From contig PBYS01000121.1 in assembly GCA_002729725.1 (NCBI GenBank), positions 1 through 64,000 on the forward strand: a DNA stretch of 64,000 bases, in the 5' to 3' direction. A model generated the notes under the pieces. The model searched no databases, was not told the DNA's origin, and saw nothing but the letters and a program-made list of their open reading frames with translations. The DNA comes from Puniceicoccaceae bacterium (lineage in GTDB: Bacteria > Verrucomicrobiota > Verrucomicrobiia > Opitutales > Coraliomargaritaceae). The translations under genes and the position numbers were made by a program. Shown here piece after piece: positions 19,815-35,432 of this stretch. Numbering within the stretch: position 1 is the first letter of the stretch; every line of letters starts with the position of its first letter.

Positions 19815-21881
19815 TCACTCTGCACCCACCGGCACGAGCTTCTCCCATTCGTAGAGCTCAATCTCAACTTCGACAAGCTCATCGCTCCCCGTGGTACCAA
19901 GCGCTTCGTAGCCGGAGGCCATTTTGCCACTTCGCGAAGCGATTTTAAATTCGCCTTCCGGTAAATTGGTAAACTCGAATCGGCCTTGCGCATCGGCGAG
20001 TTCCGTATCGAACCTGGTAGGGAAAGCTCCCTCTTTGTATTCGGCCCGCATCGCATAAACTTCTGCTTTGGGGATCACTTTACCCGTGCCCGCCTCGCGC
20101 ACCACTCCGCGCAAACGATGGCCAGACTTTAGCCGAATAGTTTGCGCTGACTGATTCAAGCTCAGTTGCGACTTCGCTGGCTGAAAACCGGGCACCGAAT
20201 CCACGACCAAATAATAAGCTCCGTCGACCTTTGGATTGATGCCGTCCAAGGCGAATCGCCCCTCACGATCGGTCCGCGGTCCCGATTGAAGAAAGCCTCG
20301 TCCATCATTAGGCTCAAAAATGAATTTCGTCTCCGCCATCGGCACTGGCTCGCCTGCTTCATTCACAATCTGCCCCACCAGACTAATCCCTGCGGGGATC
20401 TCCATACGAATCCGCTGAACCGGGCGCTCTTCCGTGAGGCGGATCGGCTTCGACAGCATGTAGGTGTTGCCTCGATGCGCAGAAATCATGTAGCTGCCCC
20501 CAAGCGGTAAGGGACTGGCCAAAAACTCATTTTGCAAATCGTGACTCCCTGAGGAATTCTTAACTTTAATATCCAGCGAACTCCGCTTGGAGGCTTCGAC
20601 CGACTGCTTGGTTTCCAAGACGCCGATCAATACACCGGAAGCCACAGAACCATCGGTCTCGTAAACCGATCCAGCGATCGCCCCCGCACGCGTGGTCTCG
20701 ATTGCCTGCACGAAAGGCTTAGTGGTTGGCTCCGCGGGCACTTCAATGCGCCATTCCCTTTTAAACCAATAGCCACGAATCCCCTCCGGCGAGACCTCAA
20801 GCTCATTCGGCACTGGGATCTCCAACTGAGCCACGCCCTCAATCACATCAACGACCCGCTGTGTCCTAAGACGGCGCGTTTGTCCCTCCACTCTGGGCCT
20901 CTGGTCAAAGTGCACCAACACGCGCCCTTCCGCTGCTGGTTCGCCCTCGGGTGTCAAAAAACGCAACTCGACTGGCCGCAGTGTGTAATCACTCCCCGCA
21001 CCACCCTCTTCAGGCGAAAGTGTAACATCAATGGGCTTCGCCGTCAAAAACTCCTCCGGCAGATAACTCAATTCGATCTCACCAAACTGAATTTCAATTT
21101 CTGAGCGCCACTTCGGACTGTAGTCGAACTGCAACAGCCCCTTAGTGACATCAGCCCAAAGCGTCTCTCGATCCCGGCCGGATGCTTGATGGTCCTCATA
21201 AGTAAATGTGTAACTAACTGTCAGCTCAATTTGCCCATCATCATTGACTAAGGACTCCGGCACTCCTTGGATGCGAAATGGCACCACCGGACGAGCTTCC
21301 AGCGACACGCTCGCTGCTTCACCAGCGAGCAAGGGGCCAATAATCTCTCCTAAATACCCCGGAGCCGACACCCCGAAGTGATAGCGACCGTTATCGTTCA
21401 ATGTATCGACCGATACCATACCAGCCTCAGATGATACTTTCGGTTTCTCTACGCCCAACGCATTCATGCACATACTCCCAGAATAATCACGCGCCACAAT
21501 CTCGACTTTCGCCCCCGCGATCGGCAGCCCATCAGCAGCGTCTTGAACCCGCAGCAGGACAGGCTGGCTCGGCTCCACCACCAGATCATGTGTCTCCTCG
21601 GGCTGGACTTGTACCCCTTTCCAGAAAACCTCCTGATAGCCGGGGATCCGGCAGGAAAGATTCATCGGATAATGCCCCAGATTCTCCAACTCCGCCAAAC
21701 CTTCGGCATTGGTTTCCACAGAATCGAGACGCCCCGAAGGTGCTAGATCCCACTGATAATCCACTCGTGCATTCGGAACGGGATTGCCATCCGGATCGGT
21801 CAAACGAAGCTGCGCACGAAAGCTTGTTTCCAATTGATGGATCATCTCTGTCTGGTCCTCCCGAACTTCACCTAAGGGCAC
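19815..21881 (-). CDS. Carboxypeptidase-regulatory-like repeat protein, C-terminal half of a TGA-split M56 sensor
   Basis: A 688-aa reading frame starting at a GTG (21881). It consists of beta-sandwich repeats of the CarboxypepD_reg/SpaA type (LRLTDPDGNPVPNARVDY, LRVQDAADGLPIAGAKVEI, VREAGTGKVIPKAEVYA). It has no signal peptide or membrane segment. It is in the same frame as the M56 gene just upstream (stop at 21894-21896, four codons apart), and both together are collinear with the single 1203-aa protein at 31821-35432. If translated alone (possible ATG at 21845 with GGGAGG upstream) it would stay in the cytoplasm, which does not suit such domains. It is probably the separated tail of a broken or recoded gene. 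Confidence 0.8.
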   Translation of the reverse strand: MPLGEVREDQTEMIHQLETSFRAQLRLTDPDGNPVPNARVDYQWDLAPSGRLDSVETNAEGLAELENLGHYPMNLSCRIPGYQEVFWKGVQVQPEETHDLVVEPSQPVLLRVQDAADGLPIAGAKVEIVARDYSGSMCMNALGVEKPKVSSEAGMVSVDTLNDNGRYHFGVSAPGYLGEIIGPLLAGEAASVSLEARPVVPFRIQGVPESLVNDDGQIELTVSYTFTYEDHQASGRDRETLWADVTKGLLQFDYSPKWRSEIEIQFGEIELSYLPEEFLTAKPIDVTLSPEEGGAGSDYTLRPVELRFLTPEGEPAAEGRVLVHFDQRPRVEGQTRRLRTQRVVDVIEGVAQLEIPVPNELEVSPEGIRGYWFKREWRIEVPAEPTTKPFVQAIETTRAGAIAGSVYETDGSVASGVLIGVLETKQSVEASKRSSLDIKVKNSSGSHDLQNEFLASPLPLGGSYMISAHRGNTYMLSKPIRLTEERPVQRIRMEIPAGISLVGQIVNEAGEPVPMAETKFIFEPNDGRGFLQSGPRTDREGRFALDGINPKVDGAYYLVVDSVPGFQPAKSQLSLNQSAQTIRLKSGHRLRGVVREAGTGKVIPKAEVYAMRAEYKEGAFPTRFDTELADAQGRFEFTNLPEGEFKIASRSGKMASGYEALGTTGSDELVEVEIELYEWEKLVPVGAE

Positions 21882-21893
21882 ATAGAGCGGCGC

Positions 21894-23252
21894 TCAGCCT
21901 TCGGCAAGGAAAAGCAGCGAAACATCGCCCGGCCGTACTTTAAATTCGAAGTGCCCGTCAGGACCCGTTCTTTGCGAACTCAGCATCGAGCCACGCCCGG
22001 AACGCACGTAGCTATAAAATGGGACTCCTTGCTGCAGCGGAGTCCCATCCGGACGTAGCAACTGCCCCGAGAGCTGCGGCTCCTCGCCCTTGAGCTCATC
22101 CCAGCCAATGGGCTCCACTGCATACTGCGGATATACCTCATGCACTGCGTCCACCCGCTCGATCCGTTCTTCGGGGGTCAATGCCCTTACCGTGACCTGC
22201 GCCACCCATTGGGTCGCGACGAATGCACATAGAGCAGCCAACAGCAGCGCACAGACCATGGGTAGCCGCAGGCGCAGTTCAGAAGACGCGGTCGGTCGCA
22301 GCAAACGCTTCACCCGATCCAACAACGAACCGGAGGAATGACCGGCAAAGGAAACTGTAGCCGCAGCTCCAGCAGACAATTGCCCTGCCGCCACATCGGC
22401 CAGCGTCTGTACATAACTCAAGCGCTCCCCAGTCACCTCGACCGCCAAGGCATCGCAGGCCGCCTCGCGTTCCTGCCGAACTTGGCCGCTCACCCACCAG
22501 AGAAATGGGTTAAAAAACAGAAGGGCCTCCATCACCAATTGAACAAAATTCACCAGGTGGTCACAGCGCCGAATATGCGCCAGCTCATGCGCGAGGATCG
22601 CTTCCAACTGTGCTGGAGCGAGCGCCGTCAACTGACTGATTGGAAACAGAATGACTGGCTTAAATAGACCGCACACCGCCGGCACACCGCTCAGCGCAGT
22701 TGAAAACACCGGCACCACGCGCCGCAGACCGAAGCGCTCACACAGATCTGCCATGCCCAAATGAGTCACTGGCTCGCCCCCTCGGCGCAGACGCACCGCT
22801 CCTCGCAACGAACAAACGATGCGTATGCAACCAAGGCAGCTGCCTAGTATCCAAAAACGGAATACAAAGACTTCCCAAGAAGCGCGCTCGCCGGCTTCGG
22901 GCGACTCAGCGCCCCAGGCCTCCCATGACGCCAACTCGGATGCGATCGAGCGCTCGCTCTCGACCAAACTGGAAGATGGCTCAATCGCAGCGGGCACCGC
23001 GGACGCACCAGCAGGCGCCACCGCACTGGCCTGCTCGGGAGCCGAGAGCACCGCCACCCCGACCGGCAATGAGAGGCTGATCACTGAAAATGCGAGCAAG
23101 CCAGCACCATAGCGCACATGCACGCGCCTGACTTGCAATTGCTTCAAAACAAAGAACAAGCCCAAGGCACAAAACGCCCCCACCCAGAGCGTGTGCAAAA
23201 GCGCTTCCACAAAAATCGGTATCGTCAATGGCTCGATCCAATCAAACATCAT
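21894..23252 (-). CDS. BlaR1-like M56 membrane metalloprotease sensor, cut by an in-frame TGA
   Basis: A 452-aa protein with membrane helices near residues 12-35, 48-68, ~130 and ~345, and the M56 zinc motif AILAHELAHIRRCDH (about 215), followed by NPFLWW and the REREAACDALAV helix. In BlaR1/MecR1 systems the protease relays an external signal and leads to loss of the BlaI repressor. After the last helix one carboxypeptidase-regulatory-like repeat begins (LSGQLLRPDGTPLQQG) and is cut by TGA at 21894-21896; the rest continues in frame in the next entry. Its start overlaps the blaI-like gene end by 11 bp. Confidence 0.88.
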   Translation of the reverse strand: MMFDWIEPLTIPIFVEALLHTLWVGAFCALGLFFVLKQLQVRRVHVRYGAGLLAFSVISLSLPVGVAVLSAPEQASAVAPAGASAVPAAIEPSSSLVESERSIASELASWEAWGAESPEAGERASWEVFVFRFWILGSCLGCIRIVCSLRGAVRLRRGGEPVTHLGMADLCERFGLRRVVPVFSTALSGVPAVCGLFKPVILFPISQLTALAPAQLEAILAHELAHIRRCDHLVNFVQLVMEALLFFNPFLWWVSGQVRQEREAACDALAVEVTGERLSYVQTLADVAAGQLSAGAAATVSFAGHSSGSLLDRVKRLLRPTASSELRLRLPMVCALLLAALCAFVATQWVAQVTVRALTPEERIERVDAVHEVYPQYAVEPIGWDELKGEEPQLSGQLLRPDGTPLQQGVPFYSYVRSGRGSMLSSQRTGPDGHFEFKVRPGDVSLLFLAEG

Positions 23253-23643
23253 CCGCTTTCCGTGTTACATCCGATTCGTAATCCTTGAGCAGCTTACGGA
23301 TTTCTGCCAATTCAGCCGCATCGACATGGTCGCCATCCAGCAACTGCTGCATCACTGCGCTCGGACGCCCGCCAAACAACTGACGCACCAAGCCATGCAT
23401 CAGCGGCTTCGTCACCGCCGAGCGTTCGACCGCCGGGAACCACAGATCCGCATTCCCGCTCTCCGGCTTTTCACGCCGGAGCAGTCCTTTCTTCTCCATC
23501 ACCTGCATGACCGAGAGCACACTGGTATAGGCGCGTTCTTTCTCATCCGTTAACGCACTCCGCACCTCGCGCACCGTCAGCGGTGAGGATTCCCAGAGCA
23601 CGCCAAGTATCTGTAATTCAAAATCGGAGGGTTTTTTCTTCAT
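23242..23643 (-). CDS. BlaI/MecI-family transcriptional repressor 1
   Basis: A 133-aa protein with the winged helix of the Penicillinase_R family: PSDFELQILGVLWESSPLTVREVRSALTD-like helices at the N-terminus, ERAYTSVLSVMQVMEKKGLLRR as recognition and wing, and a C-terminal dimerisation helix part. It should repress its own operon with the M56 sensor, whose start it overlaps. Two 16-bp palindromes lie between 23666 and 23705, just before its ATG. It is a paralogue of the product of 31306-31689. Confidence 0.92.
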   Translation of the reverse strand: MKKKPSDFELQILGVLWESSPLTVREVRSALTDEKERAYTSVLSVMQVMEKKGLLRREKPESGNADLWFPAVERSAVTKPLMHGLVRQLFGGRPSAVMQQLLDGDHVDAAELAEIRKLLKDYESDVTRKADDV

Positions 23644-23665: not shown

Positions 23666-23705
23666 TACTGCAATTACAGTAGATAAAGATACTGTAAATA
23701 CAGTA
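23666..23705 (-). promoter_or_regulatory. Two BlaI-type operators over the cassette-1 promoter
   Basis: Operator 1 (23666-23681) is TACTGCAATTACAGTA and operator 2 (23690-23705) TACTGTAAATACAGTA; both fit TACTGT-N4-ACAGTA, with one mismatch in the first. Centres are 24 bp apart. On the minus strand a TTTACA -35-like box lies inside operator 2 and a TAATTG -10-like box inside operator 1, so binding would block the promoter. Confidence 0.8.
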
Positions 23706-25806: not shown

Positions 25807-27420
25807 CTATTCTTGCTCAGGGATTGCATACTGAACCGAATCGACATAGGTGCCGACTAGATGTTGCTTCACATAATAGAGCTCCAAACGGGCGATCTCA
25901 TCAGCAGCGACATCCAAACCTCGGAAACTGACTTCAAAATGGCCTGTGGTCAACAAACCGAATGCAGTGCTCGCGCTGCGGCTATTCTGACGACCGATCG
26001 CCACTCGCTTCGTAGCAGGATCGCGCAGGGCAAAATAGCCTTCTTTCAGCTCGCTACCGATTTCACTGCCCAACTGACCGACTCCGAGATAATTGAAATT
26101 CAAGACCAGATCCTTAGCTTGCCGACTCACACCTTCCATGCGCAAACGCGTTGCCCCAAGATCAATTTTCGCCGCTGGATCCAACGGCACACGGATTTTT
26201 TCCGGACTGTAAAAACGAGTCGCGAACACAGAGGTGAATTCCGCCGGCAGCTCCAGCTCCTTGACTCTCACGAGCGGGCTCAAAAACAACTGCTCAGAAG
26301 CCCCCCGATGGCGAATCGGTTCAAAAATCTCAGCATCCGGGAACAAGGCGCGCAGATAGTCGACACCATACGCTTGTTCAAGTTGCTGACTCTTCTGCCA
26401 CCCATCGGTTGCTTCACGCAACCAACGCCCCTCGGAATCATAAGTTCGCACCGATTCAGTCTGAGTCAACCAATCCGCAGGTAAGCCATCCCACTCGACC
26501 AAGGCTTTCAAGCCATAGTCGCTGCCTGTCGGCTTATCGCGCCACAACTGAATCGAATAATCCACGCTGCCGCTCCGGCTACCAGGAAAAGGCCGATCCG
26601 TGCGAGTAAACATAAACTGGCTCAATTCGAGAGTCGCGCCCTCGGGCAAGCTCATCGTGGACTTAGGCACCGATTCCACACTTGGTAATTTGCCCGCGAG
26701 CAAGAAAAGCATCAACACCCCGACATAGGCCAACCTGTGATGCCATCGCTTTGACGGATGGTGCATCTGCTGCCAATAGATGAACAGACCAGCAATAAAG
26801 GCACCCACTACCAAAACGGTCTCCAAATATGGGATCGAAGTCAGCGAATACAACAGAAGTTCGATGGGGATGAAGCGCCCTAAACCTTTGACCAAAAGAT
26901 GCCCGAACACCACCAATCCGAAGGGCACAGCAAAGACGACGACGAAGGCCTGCCCCACATCTTTAGTCACACTGCCGGCCAAGACGGAGAAAAACCCAAT
27001 TAAAGAAATGGCAAACCAGATGGTGCCCGCCCCATACAATGCGCCACTCCAACCACCTGGAAACACCGCGCCGATCAAGGCACACTGCACCAGCTGAGGC
27101 AGCATGATGAACAGCAGCCAAAACAAGAGCTTGCTCGCAAGCACATGCCCCCGCCCAATGGGACGTGTCAGCCAATAACTTGTAGCGTTTTGCAGATTCT
27201 CTTTCTGCACGTTCTTAACCACCAGTAAGGCTTGAAACAAAATCTGGATCAAAAACCCGACCAGAAATCCAAACTTCAGGAACCCCCAATAGGCCTGATC
27301 CCAACCGAGCGACGTACGCAAGCCGCCAATCATAAGTAACATGAGCCCGAGTAGGCCGCCCCATGCGATGAGCGAGCTGCGCGCGTAGCGAATATCGTTT
27401 TTTAATAAATGTAAGATCAT
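25807..27420 (-). CDS. ABC-2 type transporter permease
   Basis: A 537-aa protein with about six membrane helices in the first ~250 residues (for example LIAWGGLLGLMLLMIGG, FGFLVGFLIQILFQALLVV, GTIWFAISLIGFFSVLAG) and a beta-rich soluble domain afterwards (~255-530). ENLQNATSYWLTRPIGRGHVLASKLLFW is a typical ABC-2 permease phrase. It starts 2 bp after the upstream permease gene. With that gene and the ATPase at 29683-30594 it should form an exporter under GntR control. The substrate is unknown. Confidence 0.8.
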   Translation of the reverse strand: MILHLLKNDIRYARSSLIAWGGLLGLMLLMIGGLRTSLGWDQAYWGFLKFGFLVGFLIQILFQALLVVKNVQKENLQNATSYWLTRPIGRGHVLASKLLFWLLFIMLPQLVQCALIGAVFPGGWSGALYGAGTIWFAISLIGFFSVLAGSVTKDVGQAFVVVFAVPFGLVVFGHLLVKGLGRFIPIELLLYSLTSIPYLETVLVVGAFIAGLFIYWQQMHHPSKRWHHRLAYVGVLMLFLLAGKLPSVESVPKSTMSLPEGATLELSQFMFTRTDRPFPGSRSGSVDYSIQLWRDKPTGSDYGLKALVEWDGLPADWLTQTESVRTYDSEGRWLREATDGWQKSQQLEQAYGVDYLRALFPDAEIFEPIRHRGASEQLFLSPLVRVKELELPAEFTSVFATRFYSPEKIRVPLDPAAKIDLGATRLRMEGVSRQAKDLVLNFNYLGVGQLGSEIGSELKEGYFALRDPATKRVAIGRQNSRSASTAFGLLTTGHFEVSFRGLDVAADEIARLELYYVKQHLVGTYVDSVQYAIPEQE

Positions 27421-27422
27421 TA

Positions 27423-29171
27423 TTATTCAGCCCTTTCGATGGTTTCTTTTGTAACGAGGCGGAAATCCTCCGTTGTGACCTCGACCACCGCAGAACCGAG
27501 ATAGCGCGGCTCCAAATGGATCAACTCAAGCAATTCTGGATGCGAGACATCCGGCAAATTCCACCGAACCTCATTTCCCTGAAATGTAATGTCAAAATGA
27601 CGCCCACTCACACTCTGCCAAAGCAAGCTGCCGCGACTTCCAAACCCGTCAGCAGGCGCGCGCTCTTTTGTTTTCGGATCGTAGAGCACCCAATCCCGCG
27701 AAGAGTAACCCCGCCGTTGATTCATGCCCAATCCCCAAGTCTTAGCAGCGGCAAAGGTGTGCACCCGTGCCTCCAACTCTCCACCCTCTGATGCCACCCC
27801 ACGCAAACGAAACGAGTTCGTAGGAGCAGCCTCGGACTCCTCGCCGCTCAGCGGAATCCTCTGCCCAATATCATGCCGATAGAAGTCGACCCGCACACGT
27901 AGCTCCAGTCGACCTGGCGTCGTCTTGAAACGTTCATAGACCGATGTCCACGCACCAAACAATAACAGATCGCTCTTCCCCGTAATCGGGTAAAAGTATT
28001 TAGGACGCACAGATGGCTCTCCCAACAAAGCGACAATCCCAGCCGTCGTCGCGATCGGCGGGTGCAATCTGTAGCCAAGATTACGCACGCTGTTCGTTCC
28101 CGTCGGCGGATCATACTCGACCACATCGCCGTCATCCGAAACCCAGCGTGCCTCCAGCAGACGTGCGGAGTAGGCCAACTCCGGGTCCAGCCCTTCGATC
28201 TCAAACTCCCCACGGATAAACCAAAACTCTTCCACATCATTCTTCCAATATGGGGGCGACGACACACCAGATGTGCTACTCCCCGTGAGGCCACGGTTGC
28301 GCTGCACATAATACCCAGAATACACACCCTGGCGATCGGCCTTAAAACTTAGCGTGTCCAGACTCACCAACTGCTCAGAAATAAGCTCCCCGACTTTAGA
28401 GACATCCACTAAAAATCGAACCGGCTGCAATGCCGCAGCCAAAAGAATCGCAACAACAATGCCGACAACTGCCAGTCTCCACCTGGCGCGCCCACGGTAG
28501 AGCGCACCCATAATCGCCACGAATACAAACAGCGCGAACAGACATATCCCGACCACCCACAGCAAACGTCCGGCTTCAGGGGAAGTCACATAAATCCAGT
28601 TTGACTCCAGCCCCGAGTAGATTTTCGTCGCGCTCGCCACTCCAAGCAGAAGCGCACCGCCAAAGAAACTTCGAAGTAAATAACTCGACATCTTTTTTGA
28701 AGCGGTCGCCAGCGCACCCAGCACGGCAACGACTCCGAGATGCACGCCCCAATAATAAACGCTAAAGGCCGAAACCGCATCGAAGCTAAAGTCAACCAGC
28801 AGCAAGGGAGCGAGCTGCGAGAGAAAATGCGGAAGCAATACAAATAACGCGACAAAGCACCATCGACTGACCAAGACCTGTCTCGGCGAGACCGGCCGGC
28901 CACGAAAGAAGCTTCTTTGTAGTCCGGGATGGGCGGGGTGAAAGATGAGCCCCACCAAAATTAAAAATATCAGGTAGGACGTTTGTACGGTGATGGTCTC
29001 CCCGTTGCCCCCAAAGAACATCACGCCGGAAGTCACCAGTGTGACACTCATCGCAATGACCACTAGACAGGTAAACCACCACGTCAGCAACCAGTATCGG
29101 CAACGTGAAAAGTCAAAATAGAACACCCCCCGCAAGGGACTCACGAAATTTTTTAATGAATTCAGCATCAT
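27423..29171 (-). CDS. ABC transporter permease with large extracytoplasmic domain
   Basis: About 582 aa from the ATG at 29171, which overlaps the upstream stop as ATGA (the frame is open to 29183). The first ~240 residues hold about six membrane helices, starting with FDFSRCRYWLLTWWFTCLVVIAMS. A soluble beta-rich domain follows, ending with HLEPRYLGSAVVEVTTEDFRLVTKETIE. The same plan is found in the 537-aa permease next door, so the pair probably forms a heterodimeric channel. Its two ends are duplicated in the small protein at 29168-29686. Confidence 0.75.
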   Translation of the reverse strand: MMLNSLKNFVSPLRGVFYFDFSRCRYWLLTWWFTCLVVIAMSVTLVTSGVMFFGGNGETITVQTSYLIFLILVGLIFHPAHPGLQRSFFRGRPVSPRQVLVSRWCFVALFVLLPHFLSQLAPLLLVDFSFDAVSAFSVYYWGVHLGVVAVLGALATASKKMSSYLLRSFFGGALLLGVASATKIYSGLESNWIYVTSPEAGRLLWVVGICLFALFVFVAIMGALYRGRARWRLAVVGIVVAILLAAALQPVRFLVDVSKVGELISEQLVSLDTLSFKADRQGVYSGYYVQRNRGLTGSSTSGVSSPPYWKNDVEEFWFIRGEFEIEGLDPELAYSARLLEARWVSDDGDVVEYDPPTGTNSVRNLGYRLHPPIATTAGIVALLGEPSVRPKYFYPITGKSDLLLFGAWTSVYERFKTTPGRLELRVRVDFYRHDIGQRIPLSGEESEAAPTNSFRLRGVASEGGELEARVHTFAAAKTWGLGMNQRRGYSSRDWVLYDPKTKERAPADGFGSRGSLLWQSVSGRHFDITFQGNEVRWNLPDVSHPELLELIHLEPRYLGSAVVEVTTEDFRLVTKETIERAE

Positions 29172-29686
29172 CGTTGGGTCCATTTTATTGATTTTTCAGT
29201 GACGAGTGCGAAATCCTCGACCACCACATTCACTTCAGTCGAACCGAGGTAGTGCGACTGAAGATGTATTATCTCAAGCGCCTCGAGCTCGGAAAATTCC
29301 TGAAAGCCCTGAGGGTAGCCATTTCCAGATTTAAAGCGGATGCGGGATTTCTCTAACTGAAAGCCAGTTAAAGTTGTCGTGTGTCCGCCACCCCCGCCCA
29401 TCTGGCGTCCACGCCGTCCGCTCTCAGGACTGTAAAGCATCCAATCAGACCAACGCTCCTCGACCGGAGAAGACCAGCGCTTCGCCGGCTGACATTTTTG
29501 CATGTACACGGCAATTAGCAAATAGGCAAAAGCAACCGGAGTATCTTCCTGCAGGCCAAACAAATCACACGACCACATGCAGTAGAACCCCACCAAAGCC
29601 TGAAGCAGGCAGTACAACCAAAAGCTAACGAGAAACCAGCGGCATCTCGAGAAATCAAAAATCCAAAGCGCGCGAAGCGAACTCAC
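29168..29686 (-). CDS. Shrunken permease paralogue lacking its middle
   Basis: A 172-aa protein. Residues ~1-70 (SSLRALWIFDFSRCRWFLVSF ends in membrane helices) match the N-terminus of the 582-aa permease, and residues ~72-172 (RWSDWMLYSPES, then LEALEIIHLQSHYLGSTEVNVVVEDFALVTEKSIK) match its C-terminus. About 400 residues, including most helices, are missing in between. It looks like a tandem duplicate with a large in-frame internal deletion. It keeps tight operon packing: ATGA overlap with the ATPase gene before it and with the permease gene after it. It may be a remnant or a small accessory subunit. Confidence 0.7.
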   Translation of the reverse strand: MSSLRALWIFDFSRCRWFLVSFWLYCLLQALVGFYCMWSCDLFGLQEDTPVAFAYLLIAVYMQKCQPAKRWSSPVEERWSDWMLYSPESGRRGRQMGGGGGHTTTLTGFQLEKSRIRFKSGNGYPQGFQEFSELEALEIIHLQSHYLGSTEVNVVVEDFALVTEKSIKWTQR

Positions 29687-30594
29687 GCCCCCACCCTCTC
29701 TGCTCTTTGACGAAGAGACACCGCGACGAAGATTTCCTTCAAACTCATCGGCCGTTCTTCAATATTAGAAACGGCACACAACTGATCCAGAGCGGCGCGG
29801 CAATGCGTCGGCTCAAACGCATCGTCAACAAAGCGCAACTCAGATCCATCACACTCGACAGAACTCCAGTTCTTCGGTGCCGCGCTCACCGCGCAATGCC
29901 CATCAAAAAGAGCCGTCACTCGACGATAACGTTGCTGCAATTGCTCGATCGATTCACTAAAAAGCATCCGCCCGTTAGCGATAATTCCGGCGTGATCCGC
30001 GAGACGCTCCACATCGTCGACATCATGCGAAGCCAAAATCACTGTCCAATCTCCCTCGCCAACGAGTTCCAACAAGCCACTCGAGAGTTCCTCTCGGACT
30101 AGCGGATCAAGGCCGGAAAAGGGCTCATCCAAAATCAACAGCTCCGGGCGATAGGCCATCGAACAGAGCAATCGCAACTTCATTTGCTCGCCCCGACTCA
30201 TATGGGCAATCTTCCGTTGCATCGGCACGGCCAAAGTGCCTTGTAGGTTCTTCTGAAAATCATCATCCCAGTGAGGATAAAAACGTCGCAAAAATGACAC
30301 CATCTGCGCCCCCGTCATCCAGTCGGGCAACTCCTGCGGCTCCGCCACATAGCCAATCTTTTGAAAATCTTTAGCTTGTAAGTCAGTCGACAAGCGCCCC
30401 AAAACCATAGCCTCACCACTCGACGGTTTTAGCGTGTTAATCAGCATCGAAAGCGTGGTGGACTTGCCCGCACCATTCGCGCCAAGAAAAGCATAAATTG
30501 AACGGCGCGGGACGTCGAGGTCGAGCGAACGGACTGCTTCGAGTCGTCCATAGTGAAGCGCAAGTTTACGGGTATGAATAGCAGGGGCGGTCAT
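29683..30594 (-). CDS. ABC transporter ATP-binding protein
   Basis: A 303-aa ATPase with Walker A FLGANGAGKSTT (about residues 37-48), Q-loop in IGYVAEPQELPDW, signature MSRGEQMKLRLL, Walker B LLILDEPFSGLD and switch His in ILASHDVDDVERLA. It is of the YtrB/CcmA/NatA type that pairs with ABC-2 permeases. It starts 7 bp after the GntR gene, and its stop overlaps the next start (ATGA). It drives the exporter formed by the permeases downstream. Confidence 0.93.
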   Translation of the reverse strand: MTAPAIHTRKLALHYGRLEAVRSLDLDVPRRSIYAFLGANGAGKSTTLSMLINTLKPSSGEAMVLGRLSTDLQAKDFQKIGYVAEPQELPDWMTGAQMVSFLRRFYPHWDDDFQKNLQGTLAVPMQRKIAHMSRGEQMKLRLLCSMAYRPELLILDEPFSGLDPLVREELSSGLLELVGEGDWTVILASHDVDDVERLADHAGIIANGRMLFSESIEQLQQRYRRVTALFDGHCAVSAAPKNWSSVECDGSELRFVDDAFEPTHCRAALDQLCAVSNIEERPMSLKEIFVAVSLRQRAERVGA

Positions 30595-30601
30595 AGTAAT
30601 T

Positions 30602-30982
30602 TTAATGGTTCAGATTTTTCCAGGTTTTGCGCATCCGCGCTTCAAGTTGCTCTAAAGTCAGCCCGAGGCGCTTGGCTTCAATCACCAACGATTCGACGGG
30701 TTCATCTAAAATCGCGGAGGCTTCTGCCGTAGAAAGCTTCGCCTGCTTCCGCACGCGCGTGCCGATGCCAGGTTCAATTTCCAAGATCCCCGCCTGCGTC
30801 AGTTGCGTCACCGCTTTCTGCGCTGTATTCGGATTGATCCGCAACTCTCGACTCAATGTCCGCACCGAAGGAAAACTATCTCCTGTCTGCAAACGCCCCT
30901 GCGCAACGGCCTTCTTGACCGCGTAGATAAGCTGCTCAGAAACCGGCTTGCCTGGCTGATGTTGAACTTCAAATGGGAGCAC
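30602..30982 (-). CDS. GntR-family (YtrA-type) transcriptional repressor
   Basis: A 126-aa regulator that starts with GTG at 30982. The winged helix (KPVSEQLIYAVKKAVAQG, then GDSFPSVRTLSRELRINPNT, AGILEIEPGIGTRV) is followed by a short helical C-terminus, as in YtrA regulators, which usually control a cotranscribed ABC transporter. Nested palindromes overlap the start. There is no Shine-Dalgarno, and the putative -10 ends only a few bases before GTG, so the message may be leaderless. Confidence 0.9.
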   Translation of the reverse strand: MLPFEVQHQPGKPVSEQLIYAVKKAVAQGRLQTGDSFPSVRTLSRELRINPNTAQKAVTQLTQAGILEIEPGIGTRVRKQAKLSTAEASAILDEPVESLVIEAKRLGLTLEQLEARMRKTWKNLNH

Positions 30983-31305: not shown

Positions 31306-31689
31306 TCACTGATTCCGCTTCCTCGCTGCGTCGATCATCGATTGCAATTCATCCAACTCCTCGCCAGAGACAGGCTCCTCTTCCAGTAAATATTGTAACG
31401 CTAGCCCGCGTTTACCGCCCAGCATTCGCTTGACCAGATCCGTCAACATCGGGCGGGCCACCGCATCCGCTTTCACTCGCGCACGCCACCAATCCGTGAC
31501 TCCCTCGCGTTTTCTAGAGACCAAGCCCTTGCGCTCCATTAACTGCAAGGAAGTTAGCACCGTCGTATAAGCACGCTCCTTACCATCATCAAGCGCTGCA
31601 TTCACTTCCCTCACATTAGACGAGGGATGCTTCCAAAGCACGGACAATATCTTTGATTCCAGAGGCGTGGGCTTGATTGTTTTTTTCAT
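31306..31689 (-). CDS. BlaI/MecI-family transcriptional repressor 2
   Basis: 127 aa from the ATG at 31689 (MKKTIKPTPLESKILSVLW); the frame is open to 31707 but would run into the operator. It has the Penicillinase_R winged helix with SNVREVNAALDDGKERAYTTVL and MERKGLVSRKREG, and a helical C-terminus (LVKRMLGGKRGLALQYLLEEE). It is a paralogue of the product of 23242-23643. Here the repressor is divergent from its M56 sensor instead of upstream in one operon. The two genes share a 131-bp control region with two operators. Confidence 0.92.
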   Translation of the reverse strand: MKKTIKPTPLESKILSVLWKHPSSNVREVNAALDDGKERAYTTVLTSLQLMERKGLVSRKREGVTDWWRARVKADAVARPMLTDLVKRMLGGKRGLALQYLLEEEPVSGEELDELQSMIDAARKRNQ

Positions 31690-31707
31690 GGTGCTTGCGA
31701 CTCGCAC

Positions 31708-31765
31708 TACTATATAAATAGTAGCTTAAATACAAATGCAAGCTTGACCTACTATTTTTATAGTA
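31708..31765. promoter_or_regulatory. Two BlaI-type operators in the divergent cassette-2 control region
   Basis: Operator A (31708-31723) is TACTATATAAATAGTA, operator B (31750-31765) is TACTATTTTTATAGTA. Both fit TACTAT-N4-ATAGTA perfectly. Centres are 42 bp apart (four helical turns). Operator B directly follows a plus-strand TTGACC, and operator A covers an AT-rich -10-like box for the repressor gene, so each promoter seems to have one site. Confidence 0.85.
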
Positions 31766-31820: not shown

Positions 31821-34800
31821 ATGGATACCCTGACGCATTGGTTCACTTCCCCCAGAGGACTCAGCCTACTAGAGTCATTCGCACACTCGCTTTGGTTTGG
31901 AGCTCTTCTGGCTCCCCTCGTCGCCTTAGTGCTTAGACGCATCCCGACAACTGCAGCCCAAGTAAGGCATAGTTTGATATTGGGTGCCCAGGCGCTATTG
32001 CTCGTCTTCGTTTGCGTCACATGGGCCTTCTTGGAACACACCCCAAGCAGTGAGCTCCACTCAAACAGACCTCAATCAGAGCAAGCAATCCAAACGGCAA
32101 CGAGCCCAGTTGCGGCAACCATCCACTCGGCGACTCAAGGCATCTTACCTGCAGCCGACATTCAGAACTCAACTCGATCCGAAACATCTCTCAACATTTC
32201 AGCAACAAACTCGAAACGAACTCCAACCAATGAAAGCATCCGCCAATACGCAGGCTTTCTGTGGTTGCTAGGAAGCGGCCTCATTCTCTGCTGGCGCGTC
32301 TGGCAAAGTGCCTCCACCCACCTTTGGGCAACACGCAGCACTCCTATCAACGACACGCTCTGGCTTCAACTGCTGGGAGAAGAAATACAGCGCCTACACT
32401 TCCGGACCCGCGTTCAACTGCGAACGGCCATCAATCTTTCGAGTCCGGCTGTTATCGGTATTTTGCGCCCAGTGATCCTCATTCCCCGGGAATTGATGGA
32501 CCGTCCTGACAGTCAATTCATCCGCGCCATCCTCAGCCATGAACTCGCCCATTTAAAACGCTTGGATCCGCTGATCGTTGCCCTTCAGCAAGTCATCGAA
32601 GCCCTGCTCTTCTTCAATCCTTTCGTATGGACACTCTCTCATTGGAGCAAGCGGGAGCGTGAAGCGGCATGTGACGCCACTGCCGCATCAGGACCAATCA
32701 ATTCCGCTGAATATGGCCAAATGCTGCTCTCGTTAGCGAAACGACAAGGACAGGCCCCCATGGCTGCGCAGCAGGCAGTCGACCCGCGACACCCATCCTT
32801 ACTCAAAGAGCGAATTGTCCGCTTACTACACCCCAACAATCCAGTGGCTCGTGGACTACCGGTACGCCTCACACTGACGAGTATCTTTGTGGCACTCGCC
32901 TTCGTCGCGACCACACGCAAAGCCACTCTCTACGCGGCAGATGTTCTCAGTCATGCCCAGAGAATCGAGTTAATTGCAAGCGAAGCGGGCGCGGTCGAAG
33001 ACACATTCCCAGAGATCCCGGACAATGCAAAGCTCCGAGTCACATCCAAGGTACACCAAGCAAATGGCGAACCGATCCAAGCCATCATTTTCGCAGCAAT
33101 CAGTCGCAGTAACAACGGACCAACAAACCACAACGGATCCCGCTATAACACGGAAGCAACCGCAGAAAAAACGTGGCAATTCCCCTTAAAGGAAAACTGG
33201 CAAGGCGTCACAACACGGCTCGACTCGGTAACACTACACGCATTCGCCCCGGGCCTTTCATCGACTCAACTCGTTATCGACGACTTTCCCCCAACGAACT
33301 CCGAGCGCAGCGTGGATTTAATCCTCAAGCCCGCCCTCCCGGCGCGTATTGAAGTCATCAACACAGAAGGAGAACCGATCCCCAACGCAACGATCCGTTA
33401 CCGGTACCAACTTGCAGTGTATGGCTCGGTCCCATCGACAGAAATCCTGAGCACAAATACGAAAGGAATCGTCAAATGGAATGCGCCCGCAGACACCCCT
33501 TTGATTTTAATGGTTTCGGCGGACGGCTATCTCGATTTCGACGCAAAAAACATTAGCTTCAGTCCGCAAAACGATCACCACACCATAACGCTCACGCCTG
33601 GACCAGCGCTCACAGGTCGCGCCATTGACCGACTCACCCGACAAAGCATTGAAGGCGCACGCATCGAATACATCGTCAGCGATGATACTGCCTTCCGCCC
33701 TGCCTATGGTTGGTTGAACCCACTCACACTCACTCAAACAAATGCCAAAGGCGACTTCCTCACGCACGCTCTTGCACCCAATTCCAGACATTGGCTTGTA
33801 GCCAAAGCACCGGGCTATTTAACAACCTTCCCCGGATCAGCGGACGGACGCGGCATCCAAACCTTCGACGACCGCTTCTCAGTCTTACCAAGCAGCGCAG
33901 CCCCAGTCACCTTCGAACTCGTCCCCAAGAAAGCACTACAGCTCGAAGTCATCCCACCGAAAGGCATCGCAGCCGATCAATTCAAATTTCAGCTGCGCTC
34001 GCTCATCCTCATCTACGGCAGCAACATGTCCGGCAATCCATGGACCGAGACAATTAAGATCCTGAACCGTGAACAATCCGACGACGGACACATTCACCTG
34101 ACTATAGAACCACAAGTCGAAGCTCCGATTGAAATCCGAAGCATCCATACGCCAGAGCGATCCAAGCGAACCTTGCTAAACTGGAAAAATGACGAACCAC
34201 TCGTCGCCGACTTTCGTTCATTCAGCGACAAGCTTCCAAACGAAACAAACGTACACTTGGACTTCGAACTGCCCGAGGACGCCGCAGCTCCTCAAGGTCA
34301 AATCGTGATCAATTGGCAAACCGGCGAACGAAGCTTCCAAAGCCAAGCGTTCCCGATCAATGAGAGACATGTGAATGCATTGCTCAAAGACAGACTCCCT
34401 GGGAGCCCCATTCAAATTTTCCCACTCGGGATGATTGGCTACTACTTTGCCCCGATAGCCTTAGACAGCCCTGACAATTCAATTGAATTCAAAATTGATC
34501 AGCTGGTTCCTGCTGGTGCGATCCGCCTGCAATTGAAGGGCACCGAAGAAGGCAATACCCGTGTCGTCCGAATACTCTTTAATCCATTACAATCGATCGT
34601 CACACCCCCGGAGAGTCAGACAAAAACGCCGCATAGCCGCCACTCCAACAATTACATGACGATCGAGCTGCCAACTCAAAACCAATGGCGCCCCCGAACG
34701 ACCTCTCCGACGACTTACCCATTTCGACTTCGGAAAGGCCAGGATGACCTACTCATTACGCCTGTCCCCTTGAACACCTCAATCATATTGGAAGCGAATC

Positions 34801-35432
34801 AAGCCGCCAGTTGGAAATCAGTCGGCCCATTCACACTTGTAAACGAAGATGCCATTCGTGAAATGACCATCCAGATGCCTGAAGGTATCACCTTCCAAGG
34901 AAATCTTTACGATAAGGGCGGAGCACCAGAGGGCGAACGTGAATTGACTCTCATCTTCTATCCGAAGCGAAACGAAGGCCTACCAATGCGTGGCTATATC
35001 CAAACTGCCAAAACGGATGAAGCTGGCCACTTTGCTTTCACTGGCATCAATCCAGAAGCTACAGGTAAGTACGGTCTCGAAATAAAAACTGAACGGGGCC
35101 ACAAGACACTGGCTAGCAACGTGGACATCCAGAAGCCCTTCACCTTCTACCTGGATCGCAGCTATGAACTGCAAATTAAGGTGCATGCTGAAGGCCAATC
35201 ACTCAAAGGCACGATTCTAGACTGGGCGAACCGTTTCCCCGACTCAAGTTCCGGCCCACAATCCGGACGGACAATTCTAAACGAATCAGGGGAGGTCACC
35301 CTAAACATCAAAGAACCCTTAGTCGAGCTACACCTCAACCTCGAAATTGACGGAAAGGCTCACCAAAAAGTAATCCCCTTACAAGCAATAGACCGAAATC
35401 AATTCCCAACATCAATTGATTTCACACTTTAG
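31821..35432 (+). CDS. BlaR1-like M56 metalloprotease sensor fused to carboxypeptidase-regulatory-like repeats
   Basis: A 1203-aa protein from ATG 31821; the frame opens at a TTG (31776), which is unlikely. The N-terminal ~370 residues are the M56 part with membrane helices, zinc motif AILSHELAHLKRLD, then NPFVW and KREREAACDATAA. After the last helix, about 800 residues of beta-sandwich repeats follow (ARIEVINTEGEPIPNATIRY, LTGRAIDRLTRQSIEGARIEY, FQGNLYDKGGAP), placed in the periplasm where a ligand could be sensed. It is the intact homologue of the TGA-split pair at 19815-23252. It is divergent from its repressor. Confidence 0.9.
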   Translation: MDTLTHWFTSPRGLSLLESFAHSLWFGALLAPLVALVLRRIPTTAAQVRHSLILGAQALLLVFVCVTWAFLEHTPSSELHSNRPQSEQAIQTATSPVAATIHSATQGILPAADIQNSTRSETSLNISATNSKRTPTNESIRQYAGFLWLLGSGLILCWRVWQSASTHLWATRSTPINDTLWLQLLGEEIQRLHFRTRVQLRTAINLSSPAVIGILRPVILIPRELMDRPDSQFIRAILSHELAHLKRLDPLIVALQQVIEALLFFNPFVWTLSHWSKREREAACDATAASGPINSAEYGQMLLSLAKRQGQAPMAAQQAVDPRHPSLLKERIVRLLHPNNPVARGLPVRLTLTSIFVALAFVATTRKATLYAADVLSHAQRIELIASEAGAVEDTFPEIPDNAKLRVTSKVHQANGEPIQAIIFAAISRSNNGPTNHNGSRYNTEATAEKTWQFPLKENWQGVTTRLDSVTLHAFAPGLSSTQLVIDDFPPTNSERSVDLILKPALPARIEVINTEGEPIPNATIRYRYQLAVYGSVPSTEILSTNTKGIVKWNAPADTPLILMVSADGYLDFDAKNISFSPQNDHHTITLTPGPALTGRAIDRLTRQSIEGARIEYIVSDDTAFRPAYGWLNPLTLTQTNAKGDFLTHALAPNSRHWLVAKAPGYLTTFPGSADGRGIQTFDDRFSVLPSSAAPVTFELVPKKALQLEVIPPKGIAADQFKFQLRSLILIYGSNMSGNPWTETIKILNREQSDDGHIHLTIEPQVEAPIEIRSIHTPERSKRTLLNWKNDEPLVADFRSFSDKLPNETNVHLDFELPEDAAAPQGQIVINWQTGERSFQSQAFPINERHVNALLKDRLPGSPIQIFPLGMIGYYFAPIALDSPDNSIEFKIDQLVPAGAIRLQLKGTEEGNTRVVRILFNPLQSIVTPPESQTKTPHSRHSNNYMTIELPTQNQWRPRTTSPTTYPFRLRKGQDDLLITPVPLNTSIILEANQAASWKSVGPFTLVNEDAIREMTIQMPEGITFQGNLYDKGGAPEGERELTLIFYPKRNEGLPMRGYIQTAKTDEAGHFAFTGINPEATGKYGLEIKTERGHKTLASNVDIQKPFTFYLDRSYELQIKVHAEGQSLKGTILDWANRFPDSSSGPQSGRTILNESGEVTLNIKEPLVELHLNLEIDGKAHQKVIPLQAIDRNQFPTSIDFTL

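Follow-up and report, generated by a model that had tools for sequence, protein, structure and literature searches.

A membrane-protease sensor gene in the window (the whole 64,000-nucleotide stretch of DNA analysed) is interrupted by one in-frame TGA, and we consider it probable, at roughly 77%, that one recent nonsense mutation cut short the sensor belonging to a two-gene BlaI–M56 system. Because all sequenced relatives carry a sense residue at the position of the stop, the window copy is most probably a recently broken gene rather than one read by a new code.

The interrupted sensor gene and its neighbours

The following features of the window enter the analysis.

19815–21893, minus strand: 3′ part of the sensor frame, carboxypeptidase-regulatory/prealbumin-like beta-sandwich repeats, 692 codons plus TGA
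21843–21845, minus strand: non-conserved ATG, a candidate internal start; GGGAGG ends 11 nt upstream
21894–21896, minus strand: in-frame TGA, codon 453
21894–23252, minus strand: 5′ part of the M56 sensor frame, 452 aa, ending at the TGA (translation, hydropathy, Pfam)
23242–23643, minus strand: BlaI/CopY-type repressor, 133 aa (NCBIfam and identity to the BlaI proteins of relatives G034 and G110)
23666–23681, no strand assigned: operator-like palindrome TACTGCAATTACAGTA; the pair is also present in G034 and G110
23690–23705, no strand assigned: operator-like palindrome TACTGTAAATACAGTA, 24 bp from the first
31306–31707, minus strand: BlaI/CopY-type repressor of a paralogous system (NCBIfam CopY_TcrY, E = 6e-11, below cut-off)
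31708–31765, no strand assigned: two palindromes, TACTATATAAATAGTA (31708–31723) and TACTATTTTTATAGTA (31750–31765), between the paralogue and its divergent BlaI gene
31821–35432, plus strand: distant paralogue, intact M56 sensor, 1203 aa (PF05569, 117 bits)

The 5′ frame (23252–21897) encodes 452 aa and is closed by the TGA at 21896–21894, past which the same frame remains open for 692 codons, up to a TGA at 19817–19815. The joined frame thus comprises 1145 codons (23252–19815, minus strand) with one in-frame TGA. The first-pass annotation had described an M56 frame stopped by TGA and a repeat frame resuming in the same frame, and had called the two together collinear with the 1203-aa paralogue; both descriptions are borne out, the second at 24% identity over 1151 columns (E = 1e-55). 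The split frame is more than a chance adjacency, since the 692 open codons can be aligned over their whole length with the C-terminal parts of the single-frame proteins of G034, G110 and G123. The 5′ part contains transmembrane segments, the last of them at about residues 328–346 by hydropathy, together with the protease motif and the opening strands of extracytoplasmic domain 1. Its M56 domain (Pfam PF05569, 97 bits against a cut-off of 31) spans residues 97–314, and the zinc-protease motif HELAH occupies residues 222–226 of the joined frame, the combination of M56 and HExxH by which BlaR1/MecR1 proteins are strictly defined on the protease side. Four stretches across the whole joined frame match the carboxypeptidase-regulatory family PF13620.

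The gene upstream, blaI (23643–23242), matches the NCBIfam models BlaI_of_BCL (E = 1e-7) and CopY_TcrY (E = 7e-7), both below the curated cut-off, and its product is 69% and 65% identical to the BlaI proteins of G034 and G110, respectively. The stop of blaI lies within the beginning of the sensor frame, so that the two genes probably form one operon. Upstream of blaI there are two 16-bp palindromes with the form TACTGTANNTACAGTA, at a spacing of 24 bp, and the same pair is found with equal spacing, always before blaI, in the window (23666–23705), G034 and G110 (L006, 1041–1080; L025, 5314–5353). We regard the palindromes as candidate BlaI operators, regulation by BlaI being inferred from the protein families. 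A search of the whole genome allowing at most one mismatch found no TACTGTANNTACAGTA-type sites beyond these two, and the repressor may therefore serve only its own operon. The two operator-like palindromes suggest that the operon is otherwise intact.

The palindrome pair of the paralogous system (TACTAT....ATAGTA) differs, an indication that each of the two BlaI proteins recognises its own operators. Judged by sequence identity, the paralogue is distant and offers little guidance on the residue expected at the stop, for which three orthologues are far better. Between the two M56 systems (25807–30982, minus strand) lie genes for a GntR-like regulator and ABC-ATPase-like and permease-like proteins. 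Among them, a 172-aa frame (29168–29686, minus strand) is an internal-deletion remnant: its neighbour encodes a 586-aa membrane protein (27423–29183), and the frame joins about the first 60 and the last 100 residues of a relative of that protein, with the middle missing.

The stop position in relatives and the age of the interruption

Full-length relatives of the sensor are scarce close to the window genome, and the three orthologues are unsplit. None of the 14 other genomes of the same genus has one, and within the same family it is found in one of 43 other genomes (G034, 1141 aa in one frame); at the level of the order, G110 (1143 aa) and G123 (a 1038-codon frame, open at the contig end) are added, both unsplit. 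With the C-terminal part as query, the 373 genomes of the order yielded matches in five other genomes, each inside a frame of at least 1038 codons, and in none was this part a separate gene. Relatives in which the two parts are always separate genes, the finding that was to have refuted the first-pass reading, were thus not seen in that set. A profile scan of genome contigs added 80 further loci, most of them in Verrucomicrobiota, Planctomycetota and Hydrogenedentota, unlike a contig scan with a single sequence as query, which gave no matches. Among these and the loci of the order, 60 frames carry both parts in one frame.

The proposed comparison of the stop codon with related genomes gave a sense residue everywhere. 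Across 64 homologous alignments the column of codon 453 is aromatic in 46 (Tyr in 32, Phe in 14), typically within a GYAP motif; Cys occurs once and a stop in none of the 64. Going by these alignments, the ancestral state is one gene.

The 3′ part has kept the properties of a coding sequence. Synonymous-codon bias is 0.11 for the 3′ part and 0.13 for the 5′ part, with negative values in the shifted frames. Branch lengths were compared for each half, in place of dN/dS, for which the orthologues are too divergent at only 31–40% identity over the alignment (individually, about 41% for G034, 36% for G110 and 32% for G123). On a fixed tree, the terminal branch of the window sequence measures 0.95 times that of G034 in the 5′ part and 0.94 times in the 3′ part, with widely overlapping bootstrap ranges, and therefore no relaxation is seen in the 3′ part. 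When sequences were simulated without selection, the share of cases in which 692 codons stayed free of stops fell from 46% at 1% divergence to 10% at 3% and 2% at 5%. Since frame, codon bias and substitution rate are all retained, the interruption would be young or the 3′ part still under selection; both fit the sequence data.

Other members of this group of sensors are broken too. The sensor of G023 (L009, G023:C27), a BlaI-linked M56 protein of about 1577 codons from the same taxonomic family, carries an independent in-frame TGA between frame-2 residues 385 and 386, in the loop between the second and third membrane segments, and its relatives in G140 and G152 are intact at that site. A TAG follows HELAHVRR in L093, a TAA lies within the M56 domain in G253, and L128 has a frameshift. 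Because these members differ in the site and the kind of stop, they point to sporadic inactivation of accessory sensors and not to a shared recoding signal, although some may be errors, most being draft genomes.

Explanations of the stop

A very recent nonsense mutation, one of the origins proposed at first pass, is supported by the unsplit orthologues, the sense column and the undecayed 3′ part. The features of a young nonsense-mutated gene are present together: relatives intact at the site, an interrupted window copy and a recognisable downstream part. The instance is in itself ordinary, as nonsense mutations arise in dispensable sensor genes. What counts against the nonsense reading is that the undecayed 3′ part also fits continued selection through leaky readthrough.

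The consequences of a nonsense mutation can be sketched from BlaR1/BlaI biology, in which an intact BlaR1-type sensor removes BlaI upon a signal (PMC7593790). By this analogy, BlaI would bind the two palindromes before its own operon, and a signal on the repeats would activate the M56 protease, leading to removal of BlaI and induction of the operon. With the TGA in place, most of the product would be a protein of 452 residues, which retains the protease and membrane part and has only five of the seven strands of the first extracytoplasmic domain and none of the later repeats; full-length protein would arise only in traces, through ordinary UGA leakiness. The truncated sensor is, by the same analogy, probably blind, and the likely outcome would be an uninducible, signal-blind system.

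The main alternative, to which we give a minor share of the probability, is that the true gene is intact and that the TGA stems from a sequencing or assembly error, or from an allele carried by a minority of the sampled population. The TGA at codon 453 is known from a single genome, a draft assembly of 125 contigs, and may for that reason be an assembly error or a polymorphism; the 3′ part has no sign of decay. Against an error, the difference is a single one of the substitution type, with no frameshift, and the assembly has good completeness and contamination figures (99.98% and 0.1%). Nor does the assembly appear error-ridden, as 1.37 Mb held no other gene that could be recognised as split by a single stop.

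Programmed or strongly leaky UGA readthrough, giving short and long sensor forms, is improbable. The intact 3′ frame with its unchanged constraint would agree with it, as would the facts that UGA is a leaky stop in bacteria and that in-frame stops with dN/dS below 1 occur widely in bacterial genes; the same study, however, found such stops to persist mostly on the time scale of polymorphism (PMC7918605). The stop is moreover absent from 64 of 64 homologous alignments. No match to tRNA-Sec or SelB exceeded the cut-off in this 99.98% complete genome, the sub-threshold matches being ordinary tRNAs in the first case and presumably other translation GTPases in the second. No UCA anticodon occurs among the tRNA matches found in the genome, and the sole tRNA-Trp has the anticodon CCA, A9, G24 and a 5-bp anticodon stem, unlike the UGA-reading type of tRNA-Trp, which has a 4-bp stem (PMC13092985). 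RNA downstream of the stop is less structured than its shuffles (z from +0.7 to +1.8).

Selenocysteine insertion was rejected on the lack of tRNA-Sec and SelB above cut-off, the Tyr/Phe column and the lack of downstream RNA structure, and a UGA suppressor or UGA-reading tRNA, the 4-bp-stem type included, on the single CCA tRNA-Trp with its 5-bp stem and the missing UCA anticodon. Of the 463 long frames in a sample of 1.37 Mb, which makes up 29% of the genome, 107 are closed by TGA, in agreement with the original remark that the code is not reassigned. The same 1.37 Mb contain 95 same-frame neighbour pairs (60 separated by TAA, 27 by TAG and 8 by TGA), which were judged by eye; genome-wide TGA recoding was rejected because only the codon 453 case reads as a split gene, the other pairs looking like ordinary neighbours, with no second gene recognised as split by TGA. 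A TAG pair without an early ATG, tested with Pfam, was mreB–mreC. A codon-score screen for split genes was weak and failed to recover the known codon 453 case. The two sensor forms envisaged at first pass thus find no support in a conserved stop, selenocysteine machinery, a suppressor tRNA, RNA structure or a second case in 1.37 Mb. Slightly less credible still is a leaky UGA that sets a steady ratio of short protease to full-length protein, with selection acting on the 3′ part through the full-length minority.

As improbable as programmed readthrough is a selected loss of the sensor, in which the 452-residue product would be useful as a short M56 protease. In this product the protease domain, with its motif, and the last membrane segment are complete, and the order has other M56-like frames of about 420–530 codons. 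The position of the stop argues otherwise. An AlphaFold2 model of residues 384–570 (34 homologues, mean pLDDT 93.8) consists of two beta-sandwiches in tandem, with a fold like that of prealbumin-like pilin and adhesin domains (best Foldseek E = 1.6e-9, low TM-scores). Codon 453 corresponds to model residue 70, between strands 59–65 and 73–80, which are strands 5 and 6 of the first sandwich. In this model the stop thus falls mid-fold and not at a domain border, and the short product would end two strands short of a complete first sandwich, with nothing of what follows, and so lack its sensor. Decay of the 3′ part has, furthermore, not begun.

Two separate genes, with the 3′ part translated from GTG 21881 or ATG 21845 (the fifth and seventeenth codons past the TGA), can be practically dismissed: the part is never a separate gene in the 373 genomes of the order, relatives do not share the start codon, and the 3′ product has no membrane segment or signal and would therefore end up on the wrong side of the membrane, as the first-pass annotation had foreseen. 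Reinitiation shortly past a stop codon is a known process, and of the earlier proposal of internal initiation at 21845 the Shine–Dalgarno-like GGGAGG stands, at a long spacing of 11 nt; its weight is uncertain because most window starts inspected have no such motif, and in no relative does the C-terminal part stand as a gene by itself.

Comparison with known systems

The window system resembles BlaR1/MecR1–BlaI/MecI in having a BlaI-type repressor beside a membrane M56 zinc protease whose C-terminal part is extracytoplasmic, and palindromes upstream of the repressor gene. It differs in the sensor, which has carboxypeptidase-regulatory/prealbumin-like repeats and in which no penicillin-binding (class-D beta-lactamase-like) domain was found. 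Pfam detected no transpeptidase or beta-lactamase domain in the joined frame, which places it outside a strict definition of BlaR1/MecR1 sensors, and the NCBIfam model blaR1_generic reaches 64 bits against a cut-off of 400, covering the protease part only.

In-frame stops in otherwise constrained bacterial genes have been described, persisting mostly on the time scale of polymorphism (Belinky et al. 2021, PMC7918605). The window gene is like them in its single in-frame stop, its otherwise retained constraint and its apparent youth, whereas that study treated stops common to at least two genomes and the window stop is seen in one.

There is also a likeness to the M56-CarboxypepD_reg proteases of Verrucomicrobiota, Planctomycetota and Hydrogenedentota, which have the same architecture and a similar length and are collinear throughout, from the membrane part up to the final repeat. 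These homologues, however, run as one frame through codon 453, where the window copy has TGA. All parts of a BlaI-paired member are present and collinear, the candidate operator pair included, and only the single frame is lacking. Two aspects are of modest use beyond this instance: the conserved operator-like pair, which in this genome apparently serves only its own operon, and the broad family of BlaI-linked M56 sensors in which beta-sandwich repeats replace the penicillin-binding domain. The window sensor is a broken member of these BlaI-paired M56-CarboxypepD_reg sensors.
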